Source: an uncultured Prevotella sp.
GTDB lineage: Bacteria > Bacteroidota > Bacteroidia > Bacteroidales > Bacteroidaceae
DNA length: 64,000 bases
Assembly (NCBI GenBank): GCA_934204655.1
Contig: CAKPZJ010000001.1
Coordinates: forward strand, 1 to 64,000
Reading direction: 5' to 3'
Part shown: piece by piece, positions 3,034-41,454 of the stretch
How positions within the stretch are numbered: the stretch's first letter is position 1
How the letters are laid out: every line of letters starts with the position of its first letter
Made by a program: the position numbers and the translations under genes
The notes under the pieces: generated by a model
What the model was told of the DNA's origin: nothing
Databases searched by the model: none
The model's input: the letters and a program-made list of their open reading frames with translations, nothing else

Positions 3034-4455
3034 CTACATCAGTGGCGAGAACAGACGAATAATGCTCTCCCACAGGCGCTGGCCGAAACCGCGGTGCATA
3101 AAGGCCGATTCGCTGGTGAGTAACTGGCAGTGGGCGAGGTCGTCATTAAAAACTTGTTTCATACGGAGAGCCATCTGCGAGTCATAGAAAAATATGTTGG
3201 ACTCGAAGTTGTTCTCAAAACTACGGAAATCTACATTCGTGGAGCCACAGGTACATAGGCTGTCGTCGGTCACTAACAGTTTGGAGTGATTGAACCCGGC
3301 CTGGTAGAGATATACCTTGACTCCGGCAGCCACCACCTGGCCTACAAAGGAGCGCGTGGCCCACTCGGGCAGCTTGGCGTCAGAGTGGGCGGGCACCATC
3401 AGACGCACGTCGACCCCTGCCTGGGCCGCCGTACACAGGGCGAAGAGCACCGGGTCGGTGGGCATGAAGTAGGGAGTCTCTATGTACACATAGTGGCGGG
3501 CCTCGAGCAGTATGCGCACGTACCCCTGCATAATATCGGGCCACGGCATGATGGGGCTGCTGGTTACCACCTGGGCAATGCAGTCATTGGGCGCGGTGTC
3601 AAGCATGGGGTAGTACTTGCGGTTGGTGATGAGCGTTCGGTCTACGAAGTACCAGTCTATCAGGAACGCTCGCTGTATGGCGTAGACCACTCCGCCCTCG
3701 ACCCTGAGGTGCGTGTCGCGCCAGGCGTGCCTCGCGGTGCCTTTCACGTACCTCAGGGCGATGTTCATGCCCCCTATGAAGCCCACCCGGCCGTCTATTA
3801 CGCACAGCTTGCGGTGGTTTCGGTAGTTAACCTTACTCGTGAAGGCCGGAAAGCGTACCGGCATAAACGTCTGGACGTCTATCCCGGCGTCGCGCATACG
3901 CTCGAAGAACCTGTTACTTACATTCCAGCATCCCACGTCGTCATATATCAGTCTTACCTCTACTCCCTGGCACGCCTTGTCTATGAGCGCGTCGGCCACC
4001 AGGTTGCCCAGCGCGTCGTCTACGATGATGTACGACACCATGTGTATGTGGGCTTTCGCGCTGCCTATGGCCTGGAGCAGGGAGTGTACAAACTGATAGC
4101 CATCGGTAAGTATCTCTACGTGGTTGTCCTTGAATGGCAGCGCCCAGTTCTGGTTGGCAAACATGCGAATGACCCGCTCGTGTGCCGTGGGTAGCGCCAG
4201 TCCGCTCTGCTCGGCAAACTCAAGCATACTGCGCTTCGTGAGCTGCTGCAAGCTACGCTCGCTGATCATGCGTTCCCTTCGCGTGTCTTGCCCGAAGAAG
4301 AAATAGAACACCACGCCTATCACTGGGATAAACGAGAGTACCAGTATCCACGCCAGGGTCTTGGCGGGCTGGCGGTTGTCCATCAGCACGCGCACCAGGG
4401 CAAACACGATGACAGCGGTGTATATCAGGAAAATTATCCAGTATAGGTATATCAT
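3034..4455 (-). CDS. cls: Cardiolipin synthase
   Basis: A 473-aa membrane-bound phospholipase D superfamily enzyme that condenses phosphatidylglycerol into cardiolipin. Two N-terminal transmembrane helices (about residues 3-22 and 35-54) are followed by two PLD domains. The first HKD motif (NHRKLCVIDG) lies near residue 211 and the second (NHSKLLVTDD) near 389, each followed by the expected Gly/Ser-Asn pair (GGMNI, GSTNVD). Length is normal. Its start codon overlaps the stop of the upstream TPR protein gene (ATGA at 4452-4455), so the two are co-transcribed and probably coupled, downstream of dnaG. Confidence 0.93.
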   Translation of the reverse strand: MIYLYWIIFLIYTAVIVFALVRVLMDNRQPAKTLAWILVLSFIPVIGVVFYFFFGQDTRRERMISERSLQQLTKRSMLEFAEQSGLALPTAHERVIRMFANQNWALPFKDNHVEILTDGYQFVHSLLQAIGSAKAHIHMVSYIIVDDALGNLVADALIDKACQGVEVRLIYDDVGCWNVSNRFFERMRDAGIDVQTFMPVRFPAFTSKVNYRNHRKLCVIDGRVGFIGGMNIALRYVKGTARHAWRDTHLRVEGGVVYAIQRAFLIDWYFVDRTLITNRKYYPMLDTAPNDCIAQVVTSSPIMPWPDIMQGYVRILLEARHYVYIETPYFMPTDPVLFALCTAAQAGVDVRLMVPAHSDAKLPEWATRSFVGQVVAAGVKVYLYQAGFNHSKLLVTDDSLCTCGSTNVDFRSFENNFESNIFFYDSQMALRMKQVFNDDLAHCQLLTSESAFMHRGFGQRLWESIIRLFSPLM

Positions 4456-6170
4456 GGTTGGGGAGAGTCTTTCTGCAACTGGGCCAGCTGGTATATGGCG
4501 TAGTCGCTGTTAGGGGTGTTGTCGAGCATCTGCCGGAGCAGCTGGGTGGCCTCGTCGCGGCGGCAGAGGGCCAGGAGCAGGTCGGCCTTGCGGCGTTGCA
4601 GAAAGTAGTAGAACGCTTGCTGGTTGTGGTCTTGCTCTTCTATGGCACCGTCGCGTGTTACGCTCTCCATGCCGTCGTTAATATAGCGCAGGGCTTCGTT
4701 GTCGCGCAGGCCCACCAGGCAGTTGACAAACTGCTCGGCGTAGATAATGTTGTTAAAGGGTAGGGTATGTAGCAGGTAGTAGTAAGCCTGGGTGAGCTGG
4801 CCCGTGTGGTAGTAGCAGCTGCCCACGAGGTAGCTCAGCTCGTAGTAGCTGCGCTGCTCGCTGTGCGAGAGCTGGTCGAAACGGGGTGCGTAGCGCTCGT
4901 AGGCAGCGCTCAGGAAGGGCAGGGCCTCGTAGAAACGGTGGTCCAGGTAGAGGCGGTGTCCGTAGTAGATGGTCCAGGCCAGGCCGCGGTCGGCACACAG
5001 GGCCAGCAGGTGCTGGGTGGGGGTGAGCTTGGGGTCATTGGGTGCGTGGGCCTTGTCGCGAGCCTCCTTCCACTGGTAGCTAAACTGGTCTACCAGCTGT
5101 TTGATGGGTTTCAGGTCGTGACCTATGACGATGGAGAGGGTGCGGGGCTCGCTGCTCACCAGTCCGGCCTGGCCGAAGTGGTCGGGCAGCGGCACCAGGG
5201 TACACGTTACGCGGTAGTAGAGTACGGCGGCGGTGGCATCCTCGGCCGACAGGTGCAGGATGAGGTGCTGCAGGGTGTCCGGGCGGTCAGCGCTGCAGTA
5301 GCTGATGTCGGCCATGGCCCACGAGCGTACAAACCGTCCATCGGCGATGAGCAGTCGGCCCAAGGCGTAGTTCGCTATGGCTTCGGGCACGGTCAGGGTG
5401 TCGGTGGTGCCGTCCTCGGTGCTCACCACCATGGTCTGTGGGGCAAATCCGGGTATGTTGAGCGCACGGGCAGCCATCTGCCCCGCGGTAGCCATGGCTG
5501 CCCCGGCCTGCTCGTGGGTGGGCAGCTCTGCCGGGTGGTTGGCCATGTGCAGCTCGTTGATGAGGGCCAGCTCATTGTGCCACTCGGCGTTGGCCTTCTC
5601 CACATCCCGGCCTGGCGCAGCCGTCATCTTCTTCTCATTGTCCTCGTACTCGCTCATCACGGTACGCTGCAGCCTGAACATGTCGCGCATGCACTCGGTC
5701 AGAACCTCCTTGGCGTTGTAGCGGTTTACCAGGAGCGAGGCCATGGTATGCACGTGTACCTTGGGGTTGTCGTCGTCTATGGTGTAGGAGGTCTTGATGG
5801 GTGTGTCGATAAGCAGACAGCGGTTGCAGACCGACCGCAGCAACTCAATGTTGGCCAGGGGAGCGGTAAAGATGTAGGCGTACATCAGCTGGATGTACAT
5901 GGTGTCTGGGGCAATGGTTATGGAGAAGTAGCCGTTCTGGTATTCGTACCGGCAGATGGTCTTCTCATCGCTCTCGGACCACTCGGGCTGGCACGACAGC
6001 TGCTTTAGGGCGGCGGTCACGGTGGCGCGGTTAGTGCCGAGGGTTACGTGGTCGGGCCTGAAGACCGACAGCCATCGGTCGGTCATGCGGTGCAGCAGGG
6101 CCGTGGCTGACTGGTACAGCACGTAGCCCAGCAGGATGATGAGAAGTATAGTGGAGAGTATAGCTTCCAT
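4452..6170 (-). CDS. Membrane-anchored TPR-containing protein, uncharacterised
   Basis: A 572-aa protein with one N-terminal transmembrane segment (about residues 4-23), a mixed alpha/beta middle region of no family I recognise, and a helical C-terminal third. That third shows tetratricopeptide-like repeats (YEALPFLSAAYERYAP, YLVGSCYYHTGQLTQAYYYL, residues about 410-560). The orientation suggests one anchor with a large soluble domain, more likely cytoplasmic given no cleavable signal. It sits 9 bp after dnaG and overlaps cls, so it belongs to that operon. The TPR region argues for a protein-protein scaffold role; a link to lipid or envelope homeostasis through cls is speculation. Confidence 0.75.
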   Translation of the reverse strand: MEAILSTILLIILLGYVLYQSATALLHRMTDRWLSVFRPDHVTLGTNRATVTAALKQLSCQPEWSESDEKTICRYEYQNGYFSITIAPDTMYIQLMYAYIFTAPLANIELLRSVCNRCLLIDTPIKTSYTIDDDNPKVHVHTMASLLVNRYNAKEVLTECMRDMFRLQRTVMSEYEDNEKKMTAAPGRDVEKANAEWHNELALINELHMANHPAELPTHEQAGAAMATAGQMAARALNIPGFAPQTMVVSTEDGTTDTLTVPEAIANYALGRLLIADGRFVRSWAMADISYCSADRPDTLQHLILHLSAEDATAAVLYYRVTCTLVPLPDHFGQAGLVSSEPRTLSIVIGHDLKPIKQLVDQFSYQWKEARDKAHAPNDPKLTPTQHLLALCADRGLAWTIYYGHRLYLDHRFYEALPFLSAAYERYAPRFDQLSHSEQRSYYELSYLVGSCYYHTGQLTQAYYYLLHTLPFNNIIYAEQFVNCLVGLRDNEALRYINDGMESVTRDGAIEEQDHNQQAFYYFLQRRKADLLLALCRRDEATQLLRQMLDNTPNSDYAIYQLAQLQKDSPQP

Positions 6171-6179
6171 GGCGGTGTG

Positions 6180-8171
6180 TCAAACTACTATGTTGGTGCC
6201 CAGCCTGCGGGCATAGTTGTTGCGAACGGTCTGCAGCTGGGTGTATTCTTTTATCAGTTCGTTCATGCGGGCCGGCTCCGAGGTGGCCGCGGCTATCTCG
6301 GTACTCAGGGCCTTGAGCCGCCGCTCCACATAGTCCATACGGAAGTCGAGCACCAGGTGCAGCGTCTGGTTGCGCAGCTGTTCCTCTTCTTCCTTCTGCC
6401 GCTCTCTGTCGTCGATATAGGCATCCTGGGGGGCAGGCTCGTCGTTGCGCGTCAGCTGTAGGCGGTCTACACACAGGTCGGCAGCCACGCGCCCTATCTC
6501 GATGTTCTCATGGTGTATGAAGTAGTTCTCGCTGTCAAAGTCGGGGTCGTCGGCATGGGCCACGGCTTCATCTAAGATGCGGCGGTAGAGTGGGTTGCTA
6601 AACTGCAGGCTGTCGGCCTGTAAGTCGTAGTATATGTACTGGGCCACAGTGAGGTCTACCGTGCCCCCGTCCTCGGTCTCTACCTGGCGGAACACCCTCC
6701 GGGCACCTTTGCGGATAATCATCTGCGCCAGCAAGCGCTCCACCTTCTCCTGGGCCGACACCGGCTGCCCTATAGAGGGCTGCGTGGCCGTCTCGGTGAC
6801 CATGGGCGGCGCCTCCTCGCCCCGCCGGGCTTCCGTGTTCTTGCTCTCCTTGGCCTCGCGGATAAAGTTGTTCATCGTATTGATAAGCGTAGACTCGGCC
6901 ACGCCTATCCGCTGTACACAGGTCTGTACATACGTGTCGCGCAGGATGGTATTGGTTACCAGCGAGATGCTCTTGATGATAGAGTTGATGGCCGCCGTGC
7001 GTTTCACGGGGTCGGTCTCGTTCTTCAGGAGCAGCTCGGTCTTAAACTGGATGAAGTCTGTCTCGTTGGCGTCTATGTACTGCCTCAGCTCGTCGGCCGT
7101 GTGCTTCCTGGCGAAGCTGTCTGGGTCGTCGCCGTCGGGCAGCAGCAGTACCTTGAGGTTCATTCCCTCTGACAGGAGCATGTCGGTGCCTTTCAGGGCG
7201 GCATGCAGGCCCGCCGCGTCGTCGTCGTAGATGAGGGTGATGTTGGATGTGAGCCTGTGGAGCATGTGTATCTGCGGGAAGCTGAGCGCGGTGCCCGAGC
7301 CGGCTACCACGTTCTCTATGCCAGCCTGGTGCATGGAGATAACGTCGGCCTGTCCCTCTACTAAATACACTCGGTCGTTCTTTACAATGGCCTTCTTGGC
7401 CTGGTAGATGCCGTAGAGCTCGTGGGCCTTGTGGTAGATGTCTGAGTCGGGAGAGTTGACGTACTTCATGTTGACCCCTTTGGTGCGCGAGTCGAGTACG
7501 CGGGCGGTGAAGCCCACCACTTTGCCGCTGAGGCCAATCCAGGGGAAAACCACGCGACCAGCGTAGCGGTCTATCAGTTCGCCCCGGTCGTTCTGGTAGC
7601 AGATGCCGGTCTTGAGGAGATACTCGGGCTGATAGCCCTGGACCTTGGCAGCATCGGGCAGGGCAAAGCGCGACTGCAGGTCGTAGCCCAGGCGGAACTT
7701 GGCGATGATGTCGTCGCGGAAGCCACGGCTGCGGAAGTAGGGCAGACCGTAAGTAGTGCCCTCGCCCTCAGTCTGGAGCTGCTGCTCGAAGTACTTGGCG
7801 GCCCACTCGTTGATGATAAACATCGACTCGCGCTCGCTTTGCTCACGGCGTTCCTCGTCGGTAAGCTCGCGCTCCTGTATCTCTATGTGGTACTTGTTAG
7901 CCAGCCAGCGCAGAGCCTCTGGGTAGGTCATCTGCTCGTGTTCCATGATGAAGGTGATAGCTGTACCTCCTTTACCACAACCAAAGCAGTTGAAAAAACC
8001 ACGAGTAGGTGAAACGTAGAATGAAGGAGTTTTCTCATTGTGGAAAGGGCATAGGCCAACATAGTTTATGCCTCGCTTGCGGAGCGACACAAATTCGGAC
8101 ACTACTTCTACTATATTTGTGGCGTCCTTAATTTTTTCTATTGTAGCACTGTCTATCCTTGCATTTTCCAT
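6180..8171 (-). CDS. dnaG: DNA primase DnaG
   Basis: A 663-aa primase that makes RNA primers at the replication fork. The N-terminal CHC2 zinc finger is complete (CPFHNEKTPSF...FNCFGCGKGG, residues about 41-66). The TOPRIM domain has VEGQADVISMHQAG near residue 270, where family members usually have EGYMD, and YDDDAAGLHA near 313, where DGDxAG is usual; the acidic catalytic residues are retained. A C-terminal helical DnaB-interaction region follows. It is first in an operon with the TPR protein and cls. A TAAATTTG -7 element at 8210-8217 lies about 40 bp before the start. Confidence 0.96.
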   Translation of the reverse strand: MENARIDSATIEKIKDATNIVEVVSEFVSLRKRGINYVGLCPFHNEKTPSFYVSPTRGFFNCFGCGKGGTAITFIMEHEQMTYPEALRWLANKYHIEIQERELTDEERREQSERESMFIINEWAAKYFEQQLQTEGEGTTYGLPYFRSRGFRDDIIAKFRLGYDLQSRFALPDAAKVQGYQPEYLLKTGICYQNDRGELIDRYAGRVVFPWIGLSGKVVGFTARVLDSRTKGVNMKYVNSPDSDIYHKAHELYGIYQAKKAIVKNDRVYLVEGQADVISMHQAGIENVVAGSGTALSFPQIHMLHRLTSNITLIYDDDAAGLHAALKGTDMLLSEGMNLKVLLLPDGDDPDSFARKHTADELRQYIDANETDFIQFKTELLLKNETDPVKRTAAINSIIKSISLVTNTILRDTYVQTCVQRIGVAESTLINTMNNFIREAKESKNTEARRGEEAPPMVTETATQPSIGQPVSAQEKVERLLAQMIIRKGARRVFRQVETEDGGTVDLTVAQYIYYDLQADSLQFSNPLYRRILDEAVAHADDPDFDSENYFIHHENIEIGRVAADLCVDRLQLTRNDEPAPQDAYIDDRERQKEEEEQLRNQTLHLVLDFRMDYVERRLKALSTEIAAATSEPARMNELIKEYTQLQTVRNNYARRLGTNIVV

Positions 8172-8330: not shown

Positions 8331-10055
8331 TTATTCGGCCTCAGCAGGCTCTACGGCACGGAAATCAGCCAGGTCGTCGGCCTTGAAGTTCTGTACGTAG
8401 GCTGCTTTGCCCAGCACGTCTTCCTCAGCCATACGCACGTAGACGTTAGCGCTCTTCTGGAAGAGCTCAGGGGCGCGTGTGGCATCATCGATAATGAGCA
8501 GGGACATGATAATCTCGGCTGTCATGTCATAGAGGCGACGCGCGAGGAAGTCGTGAACGTCCTGGTTCTGTGCTTCCTTGACGTAGTTGACAGCAGCCTC
8601 GTACTGCTCGACCATCTTAGCCACGCGGTCACGCAGGCCTTTCATGCCGTCGCTCACTTCGGCCTCGAGCATCTCCTTCATAATGGTGAGGTAGGTGCCA
8701 TTGGTGATGTAGCGTACAGCAGCTACCACCTGAAGCTGTGTAGTACCCTCGTAGATAGAGAAGATGCGGGCATCGCGGAACAGGCGCTGGCTCTTGTATT
8801 CCATGATAAAGCCCGAACCACCGTGAATACTGATGGCGTCGTAAGCATTCTGGTTGGCGTACTCAGAGTTCATACCCTTGGAGATAGGAGTAAATGCATC
8901 GGCGAGGCGAGTGTACTTCTTCATCTCAGCGCGCTCCTCGGCGGAGAGCTTGCGGTCGCGGGCGATGTCCTCGAGAGCCTTGTAGATGTCTACGTAGCGG
9001 GCTGTCTGATAGAGCAGAGAGCGGCCGGCATCGAGCTTGGCCTTCATGCGAGAAAGCATGTCGTACACAGCGGGGAAGTTTACTATCTTCTGGCCAAACT
9101 GGGCACGCTCCTTGGCATACGCCAAGCCCTCATTGTAGGCTTCCTGCTCTACACCCACCGACTGGGCGGCTATGCCGAGGCGGGCGCCGTTCATCAGAGC
9201 CATCACATACTTGATAAGACCCATGCGGGTGTTACCGCAGAGCTCGGCCTTGGCGTTCTTGTACACCAGCTCGCAGGTAGGAGAGCCGTGTATGCCCAGC
9301 TTGTTCTCTATGTGACGTACCGTGACGCCTCCGTCGCGCTTGTCGTAGATAAACATAGACAGGCCGCGGCCATCCTTGGTTCCCTCTTCCGAGCGGGCCA
9401 GCACCAAGTGTATGTCTGAGTCGCCATTGGTAATGAAGCGCTTCACACCGTTGAGCCTCCAGGTGCCGTCGGCATCCTGCGTGGCCTTGAGCATTACTCG
9501 CTGCAGGTCAGAGCCGGCATCGGGCTCGGTCAAGTCCATCGACATGGTCTCGCCGGCGGCGATACGGGGAATATACTTCTGTCGCTGCTCCTCTGAACCA
9601 AACTCATAGAGAGTGTCGATACAGCTCTGCAGACTCCAGACGTTTTGGAAGCCGGCATCGGCAGCCGAGATAACCTCAGAGAGCATAGAGAACACCACGT
9701 TAGGGATGTTCAGGCCGTTGTAGCGACGGGGCATGGAGATGCCCCAGAGCCCTGCCTTACGTGTGGCATCCAGGTTTTCGAATGTCTTGCTGGCGTATAT
9801 CATGCGGCCGTCCTCCAGGTGTGGGCCTTCGAGGTCCACGGCCTCCGAGTTGGGTTCAATGATGTTGGCAGCCACATCTCCGGTGATGTCCAGGATGCGC
9901 TTATAGTTCTCTATGGCGTCCTCGAAGTTTACGGGGGCGTCAGCAAATTTGTCCTTGTCAGCATAGTCGCGCTCCTTGAGGTCGACGATGCGCTTCATCA
10001 GAGGATGGTTCAGGTGGAACGCTATCTCTGGGTGGTCTGTATAATAGTTTGCCAT
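8331..10055 (-). CDS. Acyl-CoA dehydrogenase family protein
   Basis: A 574-aa flavoprotein of the acyl-CoA dehydrogenase family with the C-terminal extension seen in Bacteroidetes members (usual core about 380 aa). It oxidises an acyl-CoA to the enoyl-CoA and passes electrons to the electron-transfer flavoprotein encoded upstream by etfB and etfA. Visible features are MDLTEPDAGSDLQ (FAD/substrate region), RFITNGDSDIHLVLARS, and SIYEGTTQLQVV carrying the catalytic Glu of the family. Substrate chain length cannot be told from sequence. The gene follows etfA in the same direction but is separated from it by a 617-bp repeat/DUF559 cassette that ends only 9 bp before its ATG. Confidence 0.92.
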   Translation of the reverse strand: MANYYTDHPEIAFHLNHPLMKRIVDLKERDYADKDKFADAPVNFEDAIENYKRILDITGDVAANIIEPNSEAVDLEGPHLEDGRMIYASKTFENLDATRKAGLWGISMPRRYNGLNIPNVVFSMLSEVISAADAGFQNVWSLQSCIDTLYEFGSEEQRQKYIPRIAAGETMSMDLTEPDAGSDLQRVMLKATQDADGTWRLNGVKRFITNGDSDIHLVLARSEEGTKDGRGLSMFIYDKRDGGVTVRHIENKLGIHGSPTCELVYKNAKAELCGNTRMGLIKYVMALMNGARLGIAAQSVGVEQEAYNEGLAYAKERAQFGQKIVNFPAVYDMLSRMKAKLDAGRSLLYQTARYVDIYKALEDIARDRKLSAEERAEMKKYTRLADAFTPISKGMNSEYANQNAYDAISIHGGSGFIMEYKSQRLFRDARIFSIYEGTTQLQVVAAVRYITNGTYLTIMKEMLEAEVSDGMKGLRDRVAKMVEQYEAAVNYVKEAQNQDVHDFLARRLYDMTAEIIMSLLIIDDATRAPELFQKSANVYVRMAEEDVLGKAAYVQNFKADDLADFRAVEPAEAE

Positions 10056-30731: not shown

Positions 30732-30767
30732 GCGCCCGGCCATTCTGTAACGAGAATGGCCGGGCGC
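30732..30767. terminator. Terminator after GH3 gene
   Basis: A perfect 15-bp stem (GCGCCCGGCCATTCT at 30732-30746 with its complement at 30753-30767) and a 6-nt loop, 25 bp past the stop. No long T-run follows on either strand. Confidence 0.65.
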
Positions 30768-30823
30768 TTGGGTTATAGAGATTGCTTTGCTGCTTCTGTG
30801 GATAGTAGAAGGGTATTTATGCC

Positions 30824-30862
30824 ATACGCCCGGCAAATCTGTAAGAGACTTGCCGGGCGTAT
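30824..30862. terminator. Second hairpin, before the secreted protein stop
   Basis: A 13-bp perfect stem (ATACGCCCGGCAA at 30824-30836 with 30850-30862). It shares the GCCCGGC centre with the hairpin 80 bp away and probably terminates the minus-strand gene ending at 30895. Confidence 0.6.
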
Positions 30863-30894: not shown

Positions 30895-32374
30895 TTATCG
30901 CTTTAGGGTCTTATAGGTCTTGCCGCCCTGCTTTATGATGTAGATGCCAGCCGGCAACTGGTTGGTCGTGGTGCCCATGTACACGCCCTGCAGGTTGTAC
31001 ACGGCGGTGGGAGCCTCGCTGTTGTTGGCCGAGGGTAGGTCTACGGCCGTAGCCACATCCTCTATCTGGCTGTACATATACTTTGAGCGCTTCTCGTATT
31101 GCTGTGTCTCTGTGTTGTAGCGCTCATATAGATCGCTCAGCATTTCGCCTGTGGCCTCGTCGTACTCGTAGGTGTGGCGTTCGTTCTCGACTATACTCCA
31201 GGTCTGTCCCTTGTCGAACGACCAGCACCTTGCATAGAAGGTGTTGTTTCCATGCTCGTCGTGGGTAGATGTAAGTTTGTAGCGCGATTCCTCGGTACCA
31301 TCCTCGTTGTAGTTCCAGCTCTTAAACCATTCCTGTAAGCGTCTTCCATTGATAGTCTTGATTACGGTCTCGCGCTTCTGGACTATCTCATTGCTGCTAT
31401 ATGTGCCGTCGCTGTTGTAATCTTCGTAGCTTTCGTTTATATAGTGTTCGGTACCATCATCGCTGACGGTCTTTTTGGTACGTTCTAAAACCTTAAAGTA
31501 GCTTTCCGTCTCGCGTACGTATCCGCCTTTGCCGTCATAGGTGTTTTTGAGCGTGTATATATTGCTCACTCCAGTACCATCCGGGGTGAGAATATATATA
31601 TTGCCGCTTTTCAGCAGGTTGTCATTGTCTTCATCTAATTCCAGAGAGGTAAAGCATACCTTGTCGAAGTCGTACACCTGGCCATTGGTCTTGTGCCATA
31701 CCAGGTCGAGAGCCTGTTTGCCATAGGATGTTTCTCCCCTGTAACTCGAGTAGAATTTAGTAATCATGCTGGTTATCTTGGTACCCGATTTGTCGTACGT
31801 GTTAGACAGCATATCCCTGGCTATGTCAGAAGAACTGATACTGGTTTTGCTTACCTCTGTAATGTTGTTCTGGCTGTTGCGCGTAAAGGACAGCCTGTTT
31901 TGTTCCTTCGGGTTAATCCATTTCTTCGTGGCTTCATCATAGCTGTAACTGAGGCAGCCCATGTACAGGTCTTTCAGTATGGGGTCGTCATAGAGAAACT
32001 CGTTGTAGGAATAGGGCGTGTTGTTGATAGTCCATTTGGAAGAGGTGTTGTGCCCCTGGGCATCGTACGTGTATTCCGTAAGGTTTATGCCGCCAGATAC
32101 GGTGCTGGTTTCCTTTCGGCTGAGCAGATTACCCTTATTGTCGTAGCTGAAAGCTATGTCGCTGCTTTTGGTCCAGGTGGCACCGTTGTCCTTGGTGGTA
32201 TAGTAGGTACCTGCCTTGGGGCGCCATATACTGCCAGGTGCGGCCTGGACTACGCGTGCCGGTGATGCAGCTAAGGCGTTTGCCTGCTCAACGGTTGTAA
32301 CAAAGTGCTGGGCGTGGGCTTGTACCCCCCCCCAAGAGAATGGCCGTGGCCATAGAGATGTAAATTTTTCTCAT
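30895..32374 (-). CDS. Secreted T9SS-type surface protein, out of frame at a nine-G tract
   Basis: Coding sequence runs from an ATG at 32374 to 30895 (about 490 aa), but the frame breaks in the signal peptide. A run of nine G (minus strand; C at 32325-32333) shifts it by +1. With eight G the start would read MRKIYISMATAILLGG, then VQAHAQ, a normal signal peptide. As it stands only 28 codons are read before a TGA. The body is rich in YD, KG and Tyr/Thr repeats like RHS/YD-type beta sheets (FSYDNKGNLLSRKETS, TYDAQGHNTSS). It ends in a type IX sorting domain (YNLQGVYMGTTTNQLPAGIY). The closed state may be phase-OFF or a sequencing slip. The part from 31962 down is an uninterrupted frame. Confidence 0.75.
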
Positions 32375-32459: not shown

Positions 32460-32491
32460 CAAAGGTAACGTAAATAGTTGGATTTGCCAAA
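32460..32491 (-). promoter_or_regulatory. Promoter of the poly-G surface protein gene
   Basis: Minus strand TTTGG (32491-32487), 19 bp, TACCTTTG (32467-32460): a full consensus promoter giving a leader of about 80 nt to the ATG at 32374. The gene is therefore well promoted although its frame is broken. Confidence 0.65.
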
Positions 32492-32651: not shown

Positions 32652-32656
32652 AGAAG

Positions 32657-32727
32657 AGGTACCTAGCAGAGTCGAACTGCTCTACACGGTTTTGCAGACC
32701 GTTACCTAACCGCTCGGCCAAGGTACC
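32657..32727 (-). tRNA. tRNA-Cys (GCA)
   Basis: A 71-nt cloverleaf on the minus strand. Acceptor GGTACCT pairs with AGGTACC, discriminator T. The anticodon loop CTGCAAA gives GCA, and the T-arm contains GTTCGACTC. CCA is not encoded. Its own promoter lies just upstream. Confidence 0.95.
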
Positions 32728-37326: not shown

Positions 37327-40300
37327 ATGAAAAATCAATTTTTACACAAGTTCCTCGCCCTGCTACTCATAGCATTGGGCGCAGCCACCGGTGCCCTCGC
37401 ACAGAATGTGGCTAAAATCGGCACCACAGAGTATGCCTCTCTGCAAGAGGCTTTTGATGCGGCAGCTGCGTATTCATCTGCAACAAGTACGAAAAAGACT
37501 TATATTTATATATTGGCTGATGCCTCTTTTGATAAAATAGAGTATGAGGGTAAGTATGTTACTGTCAATTTGCAAAAACATATTGTAAAGGGAAACAATA
37601 TTATTGTTAAAGGCAAGGATGCGGTTCTCAATATTATAGATTCAAGGGCAAAGGCTCCTACTGTGAGTACTGATGATAATTACATGGTTTCTTATTCTAC
37701 AGGAGGTACGTTAGAGTTGACGGGCAGTATAACCGCTACAGATGGAGCTATTGTTAAGGTGGGAAGTGGAAAGGTTGTTTCAACTACCACTATGGCTCTT
37801 TGTGCCCAAGGCGATGTTACTGGTGCAAATTCAATTGAATCTACAATTGAAATTACTGGTGGCTATATCAAGGCTCAGGAGTTTTGTGTGAGCCCGCAAG
37901 GAAGGGGCGCAACAGCTATAATTTCCGGAGGTGTACTCGAGTCGTTGGATAATGCTGTTGTAGCTGGGAATGGTACCAACACCCAAACGGAGAAACGTGG
38001 CGGCACGACTATTACTATTAGTGGGAAGTGTACACTTATAGGGCGTATTCAGAGTAAAGGCTATGCGGCTTGTGGTATATACCATCCACAGGAAGGCAAT
38101 TTACTTGTTAAATATGCGAGCGGTGGTGAACCGAAGATAATAGCTGTTAATGGCGCTGGTATCGTGATGCGTGGTGGAACTTTGGACTTCAAGGCTGGTA
38201 GCGTTATAGCTACGGGTGACAAGAATTTTTCTGGAAAGGTAGGAGATTCTCCTGTAGTGGTAGGAACCAGCGGCATCGTATTTGACCGCGATTGCAATTA
38301 TTATGATGTGGCCAATACCAAGATAGGTATAACAGGTACAGGAAAAATAAATATTTCAGGCCCTAACTCAGCGATACAGGTGATAAATAATGATGCCAAA
38401 GATATTTCGGGCGTGTTTGATATTACTACTGGTAATTATTCTTCTGATATTTCATCATGTTTGGGTTCTACGGTAGAGTGCAATAAACATGGGGATACCT
38501 ATCTCGTTGGAGATTTTAAGGCACAGATAGGTGATGTGAAGTATTTAAATTTACGTGATGCTTTTAAAGAAGCCGTAACGGGGGATGTTGTGAAAATACT
38601 GAAAGATGAAGTAGGGCTGTCTTATGAGCCCAGTGTAACTAATAAGGATATAGTTCTTGACTTGAATGGAAAGAGCATTAAATATCGTGATATTCTTGTT
38701 GGTGCTTCGGGCAAGTTGACGATTAAAGACTCTTCTGAGGGGCAAACAGGCGTACTCGATGCTAACACATCAAATTATGCTGCTTGTATTAAAGCTGGCG
38801 GCAAACTGGTGTTAGAAAGTGGAAAGATAACAAACACCTATAATAATAACAATGTTGGCAATGTAGCTGTTCGAGTATATGGTGATGATAAAACAGGGAT
38901 ACAGTCTACATTTGATATTAAGGGTGGTGTTGTCGAAACAAAGGGCACCCCTGTCTTTGTGTGTTACAAGGGTGCCACTGTCAATATGACTGGAGGCGAG
39001 TTGAAAGCTTCTGGTTTGGCTTGTATCGCTGGCAATGGAACAGACACTGGCGGCACCACTATCAATATCAGTGGTGGTATGCTTACGGCTACTGCGGCCG
39101 ATGAGGCTTCGGCAGCCTGTGGTATCTATCATCCGCAGGAGGGTACACTCAATATTACTGGCGGTACCATCAACGTAGCCGATGGCGTAGGTGTGCTGGT
39201 ACGTGGCGGAAAGATGAACATGACCGGCGGCGAGGTGAACGCCACAGGCGATGTCTCGAAGACCGGAACTGTGGGCGACTCGCGCCAGGTAGTTCCTACC
39301 AGTGGCGTGGTGTTAGACCGCGACAGCAACTATCCTGCTGTGACTACGGCCGAGGTGAAGATAGACAAGGATGCCAAGGTGAGTGGCGCCAAGGCAGCTG
39401 TAGAACTGCTTAACGCAAACAATGTAGCTGATGCCAAGAAGGCCGTACAACTCAAGGGCGGTACTTATAGCAGCGACGTGTCGGCCCTGCTGGATGAGAA
39501 CTCAGTAGCAGCTAAGAACGAAGACAACACCTACTCTATCACCACCTACTATGCTAAGGTGGGCGACCAGAAGTATGTTACTCTCAAGGAGGCTTTCACC
39601 GCTGCCACCGACGGACAGACCGTAGAGGTGATAAATGATATAGAAAACTTCGAAACTCTCACTATTAACAAGTCTGTTAAACTGTTTATGTATGACAAGG
39701 CTAAGGGCAAAGGTTATATGATAAACGGCCAGTCAATTACTGTTGGTGAGAATGGCTCACTCTCTATTGGAAATATCAATCGTGCGACAAATGTAACAGT
39801 GTCCAACGATGGCAATTATACCGTATCCTATGATAACAACAGTGGAACCTTGTCACTCACAGGAAGAATATCGGTCGTAAATGGCGGTGTGGTAACCCTC
39901 TATGGCGGCATGGTAGAATCTACGAAGAGCTATGCTATACTTGCTGATGGCAACCGTACTACTTCTGCAGACGAGATATCTTCTACTATTAATATATATG
40001 GTGGCTATATCAAGGCACAAGAGGCTTGTGCTTCAGTTCGTGGTAAAGGAGCTAATCTGAATATTAAAGGCACTCCTGTGATGGAGTCGTTGGATAATGC
40101 TGTTATCATGGGTAGTGGAAATGCAATAGATAACGGCACTAAAATCAATATTAATGGAGCATGTACGCTTATCGGCCGAATTAAGTCTCCAGGTTATGTT
40201 GCCTGTGGCATCTATCATCCTCAAGATGGAGAATTGACGATTCGCTATGGCTCGAAGACCCCGGAAAAGTCAGCAAGAATTATTGCTATCAATGGCGCAG

Positions 40301-41454
40301 GTATCGTAATGCGTGGTGGCAAACTCAACTTTACCGGCGGTTATGTAATTGCTACGGGTGATAAGGACCTCACCGGTAAGGTGGGTGACTCACGTGTCGT
40401 GGTAGGTACCAGTGGCATTGTGTATGACAGCGAGTGTGGTTATCCGTCTGTTAAGACTGTAAGTATCAACGTAGCTCCAGGTTCTGACCCATATGCCGTT
40501 ATCAAAGGTAGTAAGTCGGCTATTGATGTTGTGAAAGCCGCTGATGATGTTGATGCTGACAAGGCCATAACCATTCATCATGGTACTTTCAGCAGCGATG
40601 TGTCAGCCTACTGCGTAGACGGTTTCACCGCTACTCCCAACGCCGACGGTACCTATGGCATAACCGAGGTAGGCGACGCTATGCTGGTATATGCGGACAG
40701 CTATACCAATGTGGAGACAGGCGGTAAAGTGGAAATTGATGCTGATAAGCTGAACAAAATGCTAATTACTAAAGATGTGCCTGGCGTTGATATAAGTTTG
40801 AAAGTAAACTTTGCCAATACTAATTGGCACTCGTTTGTGGCTCCGTTCGATTTTGTATTGACCGCAGAAATGCTGCAGAACTTTGGTTTTGCCAAATTGT
40901 ATAATTGTGATTTGGACAATGGCAACACGGTGTTCTCATTCAGGGAATTGGCAGCTGGCACTAAGATAGAGGCGTATCAGGCTTATCTCATCAAGACCAC
41001 TACTACGGGTTATTCTACATTAAATGTAGGAAAAGCAGATGTGGTGACCGCAAAAACTCCCAGTGATTGTTCGTCAACAGATGAGTATTATGTGTTCCAT
41101 GGAGTGATGGAAAACACTACTATTGCGGATAAGTATGGATACTATCTGCGTTCGGAAACCCAGTCATTGGTTTATAATAACAATGTAGAGGCTTGGATAC
41201 CCCCATTCTCATTCTACTTGACTATGCAGAACCGTAAAACTAATGAATTTATTGTTCCTACGCAGACCGCCGCCGCTCCCCGTTTCCAAGTCATTGGTGA
41301 AGGTGAGGCTACGGGCATTACGGATGTTACTACAGATGTGAATAGTGTAGCTGCTAAGGTGTATAACTTGCAGGGTGTAGAGGTTGGTACTTCTACCGCA
41401 GGTTTGCCAAAGGGTGTATATATCCAAAATGGACGTAAGATAATGGTTAAATAA
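37327..41454 (+). CDS. Large secreted three-repeat surface protein with T9SS sorting domain
   Basis: A 1375-aa protein with signal peptide (about residues 1-25, ending ALAQ) and three homologous units of about 340-380 aa: residues about 28-397, 398-740 and 741-1120. Each opens with a motif like AKVGDQKYVTLKEAFTAA and the first and third contain ESLDNAV, GYxACGIYHPQ, GAGIVMRGG and GDSxVVVGTSGIV. The Gly/Thr-rich TGG and SGG turns suggest a parallel beta-helix. A C-terminal region (NWHSFVAPFDFVLTAEMLQN) leads to a type IX sorting domain (KVYNLQGVEVGTSTAGLPKG). Base composition switches inside the gene: AT-rich in unit 1 and early unit 2, GC-richer around 39090-39620 and after 40580. Probably an adhesin or surface-display protein; substrate unknown. 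Confidence 0.85.
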   Translation: MKNQFLHKFLALLLIALGAATGALAQNVAKIGTTEYASLQEAFDAAAAYSSATSTKKTYIYILADASFDKIEYEGKYVTVNLQKHIVKGNNIIVKGKDAVLNIIDSRAKAPTVSTDDNYMVSYSTGGTLELTGSITATDGAIVKVGSGKVVSTTTMALCAQGDVTGANSIESTIEITGGYIKAQEFCVSPQGRGATAIISGGVLESLDNAVVAGNGTNTQTEKRGGTTITISGKCTLIGRIQSKGYAACGIYHPQEGNLLVKYASGGEPKIIAVNGAGIVMRGGTLDFKAGSVIATGDKNFSGKVGDSPVVVGTSGIVFDRDCNYYDVANTKIGITGTGKINISGPNSAIQVINNDAKDISGVFDITTGNYSSDISSCLGSTVECNKHGDTYLVGDFKAQIGDVKYLNLRDAFKEAVTGDVVKILKDEVGLSYEPSVTNKDIVLDLNGKSIKYRDILVGASGKLTIKDSSEGQTGVLDANTSNYAACIKAGGKLVLESGKITNTYNNNNVGNVAVRVYGDDKTGIQSTFDIKGGVVETKGTPVFVCYKGATVNMTGGELKASGLACIAGNGTDTGGTTINISGGMLTATAADEASAACGIYHPQEGTLNITGGTINVADGVGVLVRGGKMNMTGGEVNATGDVSKTGTVGDSRQVVPTSGVVLDRDSNYPAVTTAEVKIDKDAKVSGAKAAVELLNANNVADAKKAVQLKGGTYSSDVSALLDENSVAAKNEDNTYSITTYYAKVGDQKYVTLKEAFTAATDGQTVEVINDIENFETLTINKSVKLFMYDKAKGKGYMINGQSITVGENGSLSIGNINRATNVTVSNDGNYTVSYDNNSGTLSLTGRISVVNGGVVTLYGGMVESTKSYAILADGNRTTSADEISSTINIYGGYIKAQEACASVRGKGANLNIKGTPVMESLDNAVIMGSGNAIDNGTKININGACTLIGRIKSPGYVACGIYHPQDGELTIRYGSKTPEKSARIIAINGAGIVMRGGKLNFTGGYVIATGDKDLTGKVGDSRVVVGTSGIVYDSECGYPSVKTVSINVAPGSDPYAVIKGSKSAIDVVKAADDVDADKAITIHHGTFSSDVSAYCVDGFTATPNADGTYGITEVGDAMLVYADSYTNVETGGKVEIDADKLNKMLITKDVPGVDISLKVNFANTNWHSFVAPFDFVLTAEMLQNFGFAKLYNCDLDNGNTVFSFRELAAGTKIEAYQAYLIKTTTTGYSTLNVGKADVVTAKTPSDCSSTDEYYVFHGVMENTTIADKYGYYLRSETQSLVYNNNVEAWIPPFSFYLTMQNRKTNEFIVPTQTAAAPRFQVIGEGEATGITDVTTDVNSVAAKVYNLQGVEVGTSTAGLPKGVYIQNGRKIMVK

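Follow-up and report, generated by a model that had tools for sequence, protein, structure and literature searches.

The gene considered here lies on the minus strand of a 64,000-nucleotide stretch of DNA, hereafter the window. Its body, delimited by frame analysis, is an intact coding region of 476 codons plus a stop (30895-32325) for a putative secreted protein. The start codon ATG at 32372-32374 opens a signal-peptide coding region (32308-32374) that is interrupted by a homopolymer of nine G (32325-32333), the proposed slippage tract, which covers the last base of codon 14, codons 15 and 16, and the first two bases of codon 17, counted from the ATG. The signal peptide was judged by eye and not by a predictor; the protein P0001, a full-length natural copy, reads MRKIYISMATAILLGGVQAHAQ across this region. 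At the present tract length, translation from the ATG gives an out-of-frame product of 28 residues that ends at a stop at 32288 (32288-32374, minus strand). The frame of the body is open from 32370 to 30895 (491 codons plus a stop), and the 476-residue body, whose reading begins at the tract's last G, starts with VQAHAQHFVTT. A mechanical gene call places the start of the window's own gene at an internal Met, at position 31962. A sequence-only reading of this DNA had claimed that nine G in codons 14-17 throw the ATG frame out of phase and that the body holds no stop, and the frames bear out both statements.

The same reading had described a full-consensus promoter, and TTTG-N20-TACCTTTG is indeed present at 32460-32491 on the minus strand, matching TTTG-N20-TAnnTTTG, which we take to be the Bacteroidetes promoter consensus. 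The window contains five promoter-type sites, where shuffled sequence is expected to yield 0.21. Further upstream, the gene is preceded by a tRNA-Cys (32656-32727). Two GC-rich inverted repeats follow it at 30732-30861, GCCCGGCAA...TTGCCGGGC and GCGCCCGGCCATTCT...AGAATGGCCGGGCGC, and are perhaps terminators.

The length of the tract was considered as evidence of a switch in itself and was dropped, as composition can account for a G9. The tract is the sole run of at least seven G or C in the window. Words of eight G are not over-represented (two seen, both inside the G9, against 3.14 expected from dinucleotide shuffles), and the expected number of G9 or C9 words per 64 kb ranges from 0.81 under a Markov model of order 1 to 0.054 under order 5. 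The case for a switch must therefore rest on position and comparison.

The sole orthologous DNA compared, and the one locus returned by a search of genome contigs, is contig JALEKD010000025.1 (L001) of the Prevotella sp. metagenome-assembled genome SUG78 (G001). Identity to the window over three aligned segments is 95.2, 92.8 and 94.5%. Judging from this similarity, the window most likely comes from SUG78's own species of Prevotella or from a sister species. L001 also has an ATG (at 9954), and its promoter still fits the consensus with one base changed. At the equivalent site its tract is seven G long, against nine in the window, a difference seen in this one genome pair, while the flanks of the tract are identical over 30 bases before it and 54 after it. 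Neither DNA copy is in frame: the window gives a product of 28 residues and L001 one of 33. Twelve indel events separate the two sequences in 21.2 kb of alignment: nine lie outside genes, one of these in the 5' leader of the G-tract gene, two are triplets within its body, and the G tract alone disrupts a coding frame, a count that speaks against a noisy assembly. The aligned parts of the window hold four homopolymers of at least seven bases; one is unchanged, a T8 run carries a substitution, and the two that differ in length between the genomes are the G tract and a T7 run outside genes. SUG78 itself was the only genome to yield a full ortholog, both among 149 relatives and among 398 genomes of the genus; 20 of the 149 relatives gave matches, and the 19 besides SUG78 matched parts of the gene only, mostly the tail. 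A search of viral contigs for more orthologous DNA returned none.

More registers of the tract can be read from proteins. Fifteen database proteins (P0001-P0015) were compared, with registers deduced from protein sequence. P0001, of 492 residues, is full-length and 100% identical over the 476-residue body, and P0002-P0005 (85-90%) are likewise full-length and contain LGGV. If the Gly codons are taken as GGG, P0001-P0005 imply eight G, a length that the sequence-only reading had proposed would restore the frame. P0006 joins the body out of the third upstream frame, as would be expected from a tract of seven G like that of L001. In P0009-P0011 the annotated start is the internal Met equivalent to window position 31962; they are probably off copies, although a gene-calling choice or truncation at a contig end could also explain them. 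P0007 and P0008 (75 and 74%) begin with an ordinary signal peptide lacking the Gly-Gly run, which makes the G tract look derived. The more distant P0012-P0015 are uninformative on the tract. The comparison of strains that had been suggested yields nine G against seven. Of the two outcomes named beforehand as contrary to a switch, a uniform length in frame and additional stops in relatives, neither fits the assemblies and proteins compared.

The body contains no stops in the window or in L001, although both copies are out of frame. A neutral simulation at half the observed divergence gave an expectation of 3.1 stops per lineage and a probability of 0.047 of none. The dN/dS of the body between window and L001 is 0.47, against 0.00-0.11 in nine other genes on the same contigs. 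A body that stays open and constrained while both genomes are out of frame makes decay unlikely. Along the protein (body 30895-32325 and P0001-P0006), pairs of alleles alternate between near-identity and 64-76% identity; for example, P0001 and P0004 are 100% identical in one block of 60 columns and 72% identical in the preceding block. This pattern suggests that the alleles are mosaic, through recombination between them, and fast mosaic evolution with an intact frame would fit a surface antigen under diversifying selection.

P0001 is modelled (pLDDT 81) as a long all-beta protein, and its similarity to YD/RHS proteins is weak. The YD-repeat model TIGR01643 scores 18.7 bits against a cut-off of 15.8 in a single stretch, and the Pfam RHS_repeat model reaches 16 bits, under its cut-off of 22. 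The top Foldseek rows for the model are RHS proteins, with query TM-scores of at most 0.24; VIA-align returned mainly outer-membrane barrels, plus OspA, and a sequence profile search of solved structures gave three rows, the best with an E-value of 0.045. No function is claimed from the fold.

The C-terminal tail VYNLQG...LPAGIYIIK (30898-31047, minus strand) resembles the tails of otherwise unrelated proteins and is a possible sorting tail of the type IX secretion system (T9SS) that falls below the cut-off of the type A sorting-tail model TIGR04183. This model gave no row for the body (E-values up to 1) or for P0001 (up to 10), and 12.1 bits, short of its cut-off of 23, for the tail of the SUG78 copy. 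In 13 of 14 control genomes it finds matches at E-values up to 10, one of them above the cut-off. Since the tail of this gene misses the cut-off, TIGR04183 was set aside as proof of type IX export. Five other tails in SUG78 do exceed it, and the T9SS translocon SprA/Sov is encoded in that genome (TIGR04189, 2653.5 bits), while 0 of the 14 control genomes match. The earlier designation of the product as a type IX secreted protein is therefore only partly supported: the translocon and the tails of other proteins speak for it, and the tail of the gene itself falls short; from these sequence matches, type IX export of the putative secreted protein is plausible. Elsewhere in the window, the plus-strand gene at 37327-41454 encodes a protein of 1375 residues with a signal-peptide-like start and a similar tail, VYNLQG...LPKGVYI.

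Other poly-G loci occur in the same genome and its relatives. SUG78 (about 2.3 Mb) holds 40 G tracts of at least seven bases, grouped by hand as 24 G7, eight G8, six G9 and two G12. It is unexceptional in this respect, being one of 28 genomes of 149 with at least 14 G9 words (hand count). One of the two G12 tracts (L082, 6512-6523) interrupts the signal peptide of a gene for an outer-membrane beta-barrel protein (4274-6541, minus strand) and is out of frame; homologs of this protein carry PF14905. The protein P0016, 100% identical to this barrel protein, begins MGGGIFAL, which implies, at the level of the protein sequence, a tract register other than that of L082. The second G12 (L033, 3126-3137) reads as C12 and falls about 37 codons past the first Met of a 513-codon frame; this frame is open through the C12, and by eye its end resembles a sensor kinase. 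The remaining 14 SUG78 tracts of at least eight G are mostly between, upstream of or inside genes, and no claim is made for them. In genome G015, a G10 lies out of frame in the signal peptide of a lipoprotein (L102, near 1501); P0046, 98% identical to this lipoprotein, starts past the tract, and in P0047 (74%) the start is continuous. G10-G11 tracts were also seen near the 5' ends of frames in other Prevotella relatives (L089, L096, L108, L113), which by eye resemble acyltransferases, a CapA-like protein and an acetyltransferase-like protein.

Tracts of ten or more G are present at least once in 79 of the 149 relatives. We sampled 90 of them, comprising 30 loci at one per genome and 60 picked by hand in listed order; the hand-picking skipped 27, mostly contig ends and clusters, and the L082 barrel tract is among the 90. 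As controls, 114 tracts of exactly five G and 3996 positions were placed with the same crude gene model. The long tracts avoid gene interiors, where 20 of 90 lie, compared with 74 of the 114 G5 tracts and 2766 of the positions. They fall within 400 bases upstream of a gene in 28 cases (G5, 6; positions, 216), near a gene start in 25 (G5, 21, p 0.13; positions, 678, p 0.011) and elsewhere in 17 (G5, 13; positions, 336). Any unstable repeat should keep out of gene interiors, and this avoidance does not by itself prove switches. The genus-wide excess at gene starts was not relied on either, as it is weak and a frameshift within a gene mimics a start in a crude gene model.

We consider it likely that the G-tract gene is a translational simple-sequence-repeat contingency locus, that is, a phase-variable gene, because tract lengths differ, full-length copies exist, the body is constrained and the same architecture recurs at other loci. 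The suggestion of phase variation made from the sequence alone is thus strengthened by the tract-length difference, the full-length copy, the constrained body and the similar loci. Replication slippage at the tract would add or remove a G, and only one of the three registers would join the ATG and the start of the signal peptide to the body. In the on state, the cell would make and export the full protein, presumably displaying it at the surface; in the off state, translation would stop after about 30 residues. The window would then record an off cell or lineage, and switching would be reversible, with both states mixed within a population. The benefit may be escape from phage or host recognition, or bet-hedging between niches.

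The recorded lengths could instead be homopolymer miscalls, the true tract being always in frame. Homopolymers are classic sites of error, and P0001, with its identical body, is in frame; but no other frame-breaking coding indel separates the window from L001 in 21 kb, L001 is itself off-register with a different length although it comes from a different genome, P0006 and P0009-P0011 are further candidate off-register copies, and by the protein evidence a second locus, the barrel gene, behaves alike. An assembly or sequencing error is accordingly unlikely. A young pseudogene, with loss of function fixed in these lineages, would agree with two out-of-frame DNA copies and with a dN/dS above that of the neighbours, yet the 476-codon body is open in the window and in L001 with triplet indels only, dN/dS is below 1, the promoter is kept and a full-length copy with an identical body exists elsewhere, so we regard this as very improbable.

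It is also conceivable that every tract length yields protein, through transcriptional slippage or ribosomal frameshifting across the tract, which would then tune the level of expression instead of switching it. Homopolymers can cause polymerase slippage, which lends this reading some credit, but alone it leaves the difference in tract length between two close genomes unaccounted for, and we hold it to be quite improbable.

What is known of phase variation in Bacteroidales is mainly DNA inversion. In Bacteroides, the invertible promoters of capsule and SusC/SusD loci resemble the present case in varying the surface within the same order, but they are inverted by a recombinase, whereas the repeat in the Prevotella gene is of a single base and requires no recombinase (PMC3090145, PMC11868660). 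One of these sources only suggests slippage, for one polysaccharide locus in B. fragilis YCH46 (PMC3090145). The architecture also resembles that of the translational poly-G contingency genes of Helicobacter canadensis, where a scan took G tracts of at least seven bases and ranked frameshifted ones or those longer than nine as strong candidates; these genes too have a long G tract at the 5' coding end and an out-of-frame genome state, but they belong to another phylum and reads show mixtures of lengths, whereas for the Prevotella gene the differences are between assemblies only (PMC2823697). Similarly, Helicobacter pylori sabA is an outer-membrane adhesin gene with a 5' coding repeat and in-frame and out-of-frame alleles in related isolates; it differs in having a CT dinucleotide repeat and a promoter poly-T, and in being experimentally verified (PMC2715451). 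None of the literature matches listed, in which subscription journals are sparsely covered, described phase variation by repeat slippage in Prevotella. The mechanism is well known in Helicobacter, and for Prevotella we did not find it reported in the literature searched.

Beyond the single gene, we tentatively raise, with slightly less than even confidence, the possibility of a poly-G phasome in Prevotella, in which many long tracts at promoters, leaders and signal peptides would be slippage switches. If so, outer-membrane, lipoprotein and polysaccharide-modifying genes would be switched, and Bacteroidales would possess a second system of phase variation beside DNA inversion. Read mappers detect inversions as flipped segments; single-base slippage switches would escape those methods and can pass for assembly errors or pseudogenes. 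Should Prevotella use such switches, the surface variation of these commensals would be underestimated, and the state of each switch could be recovered from metagenome reads that already exist.
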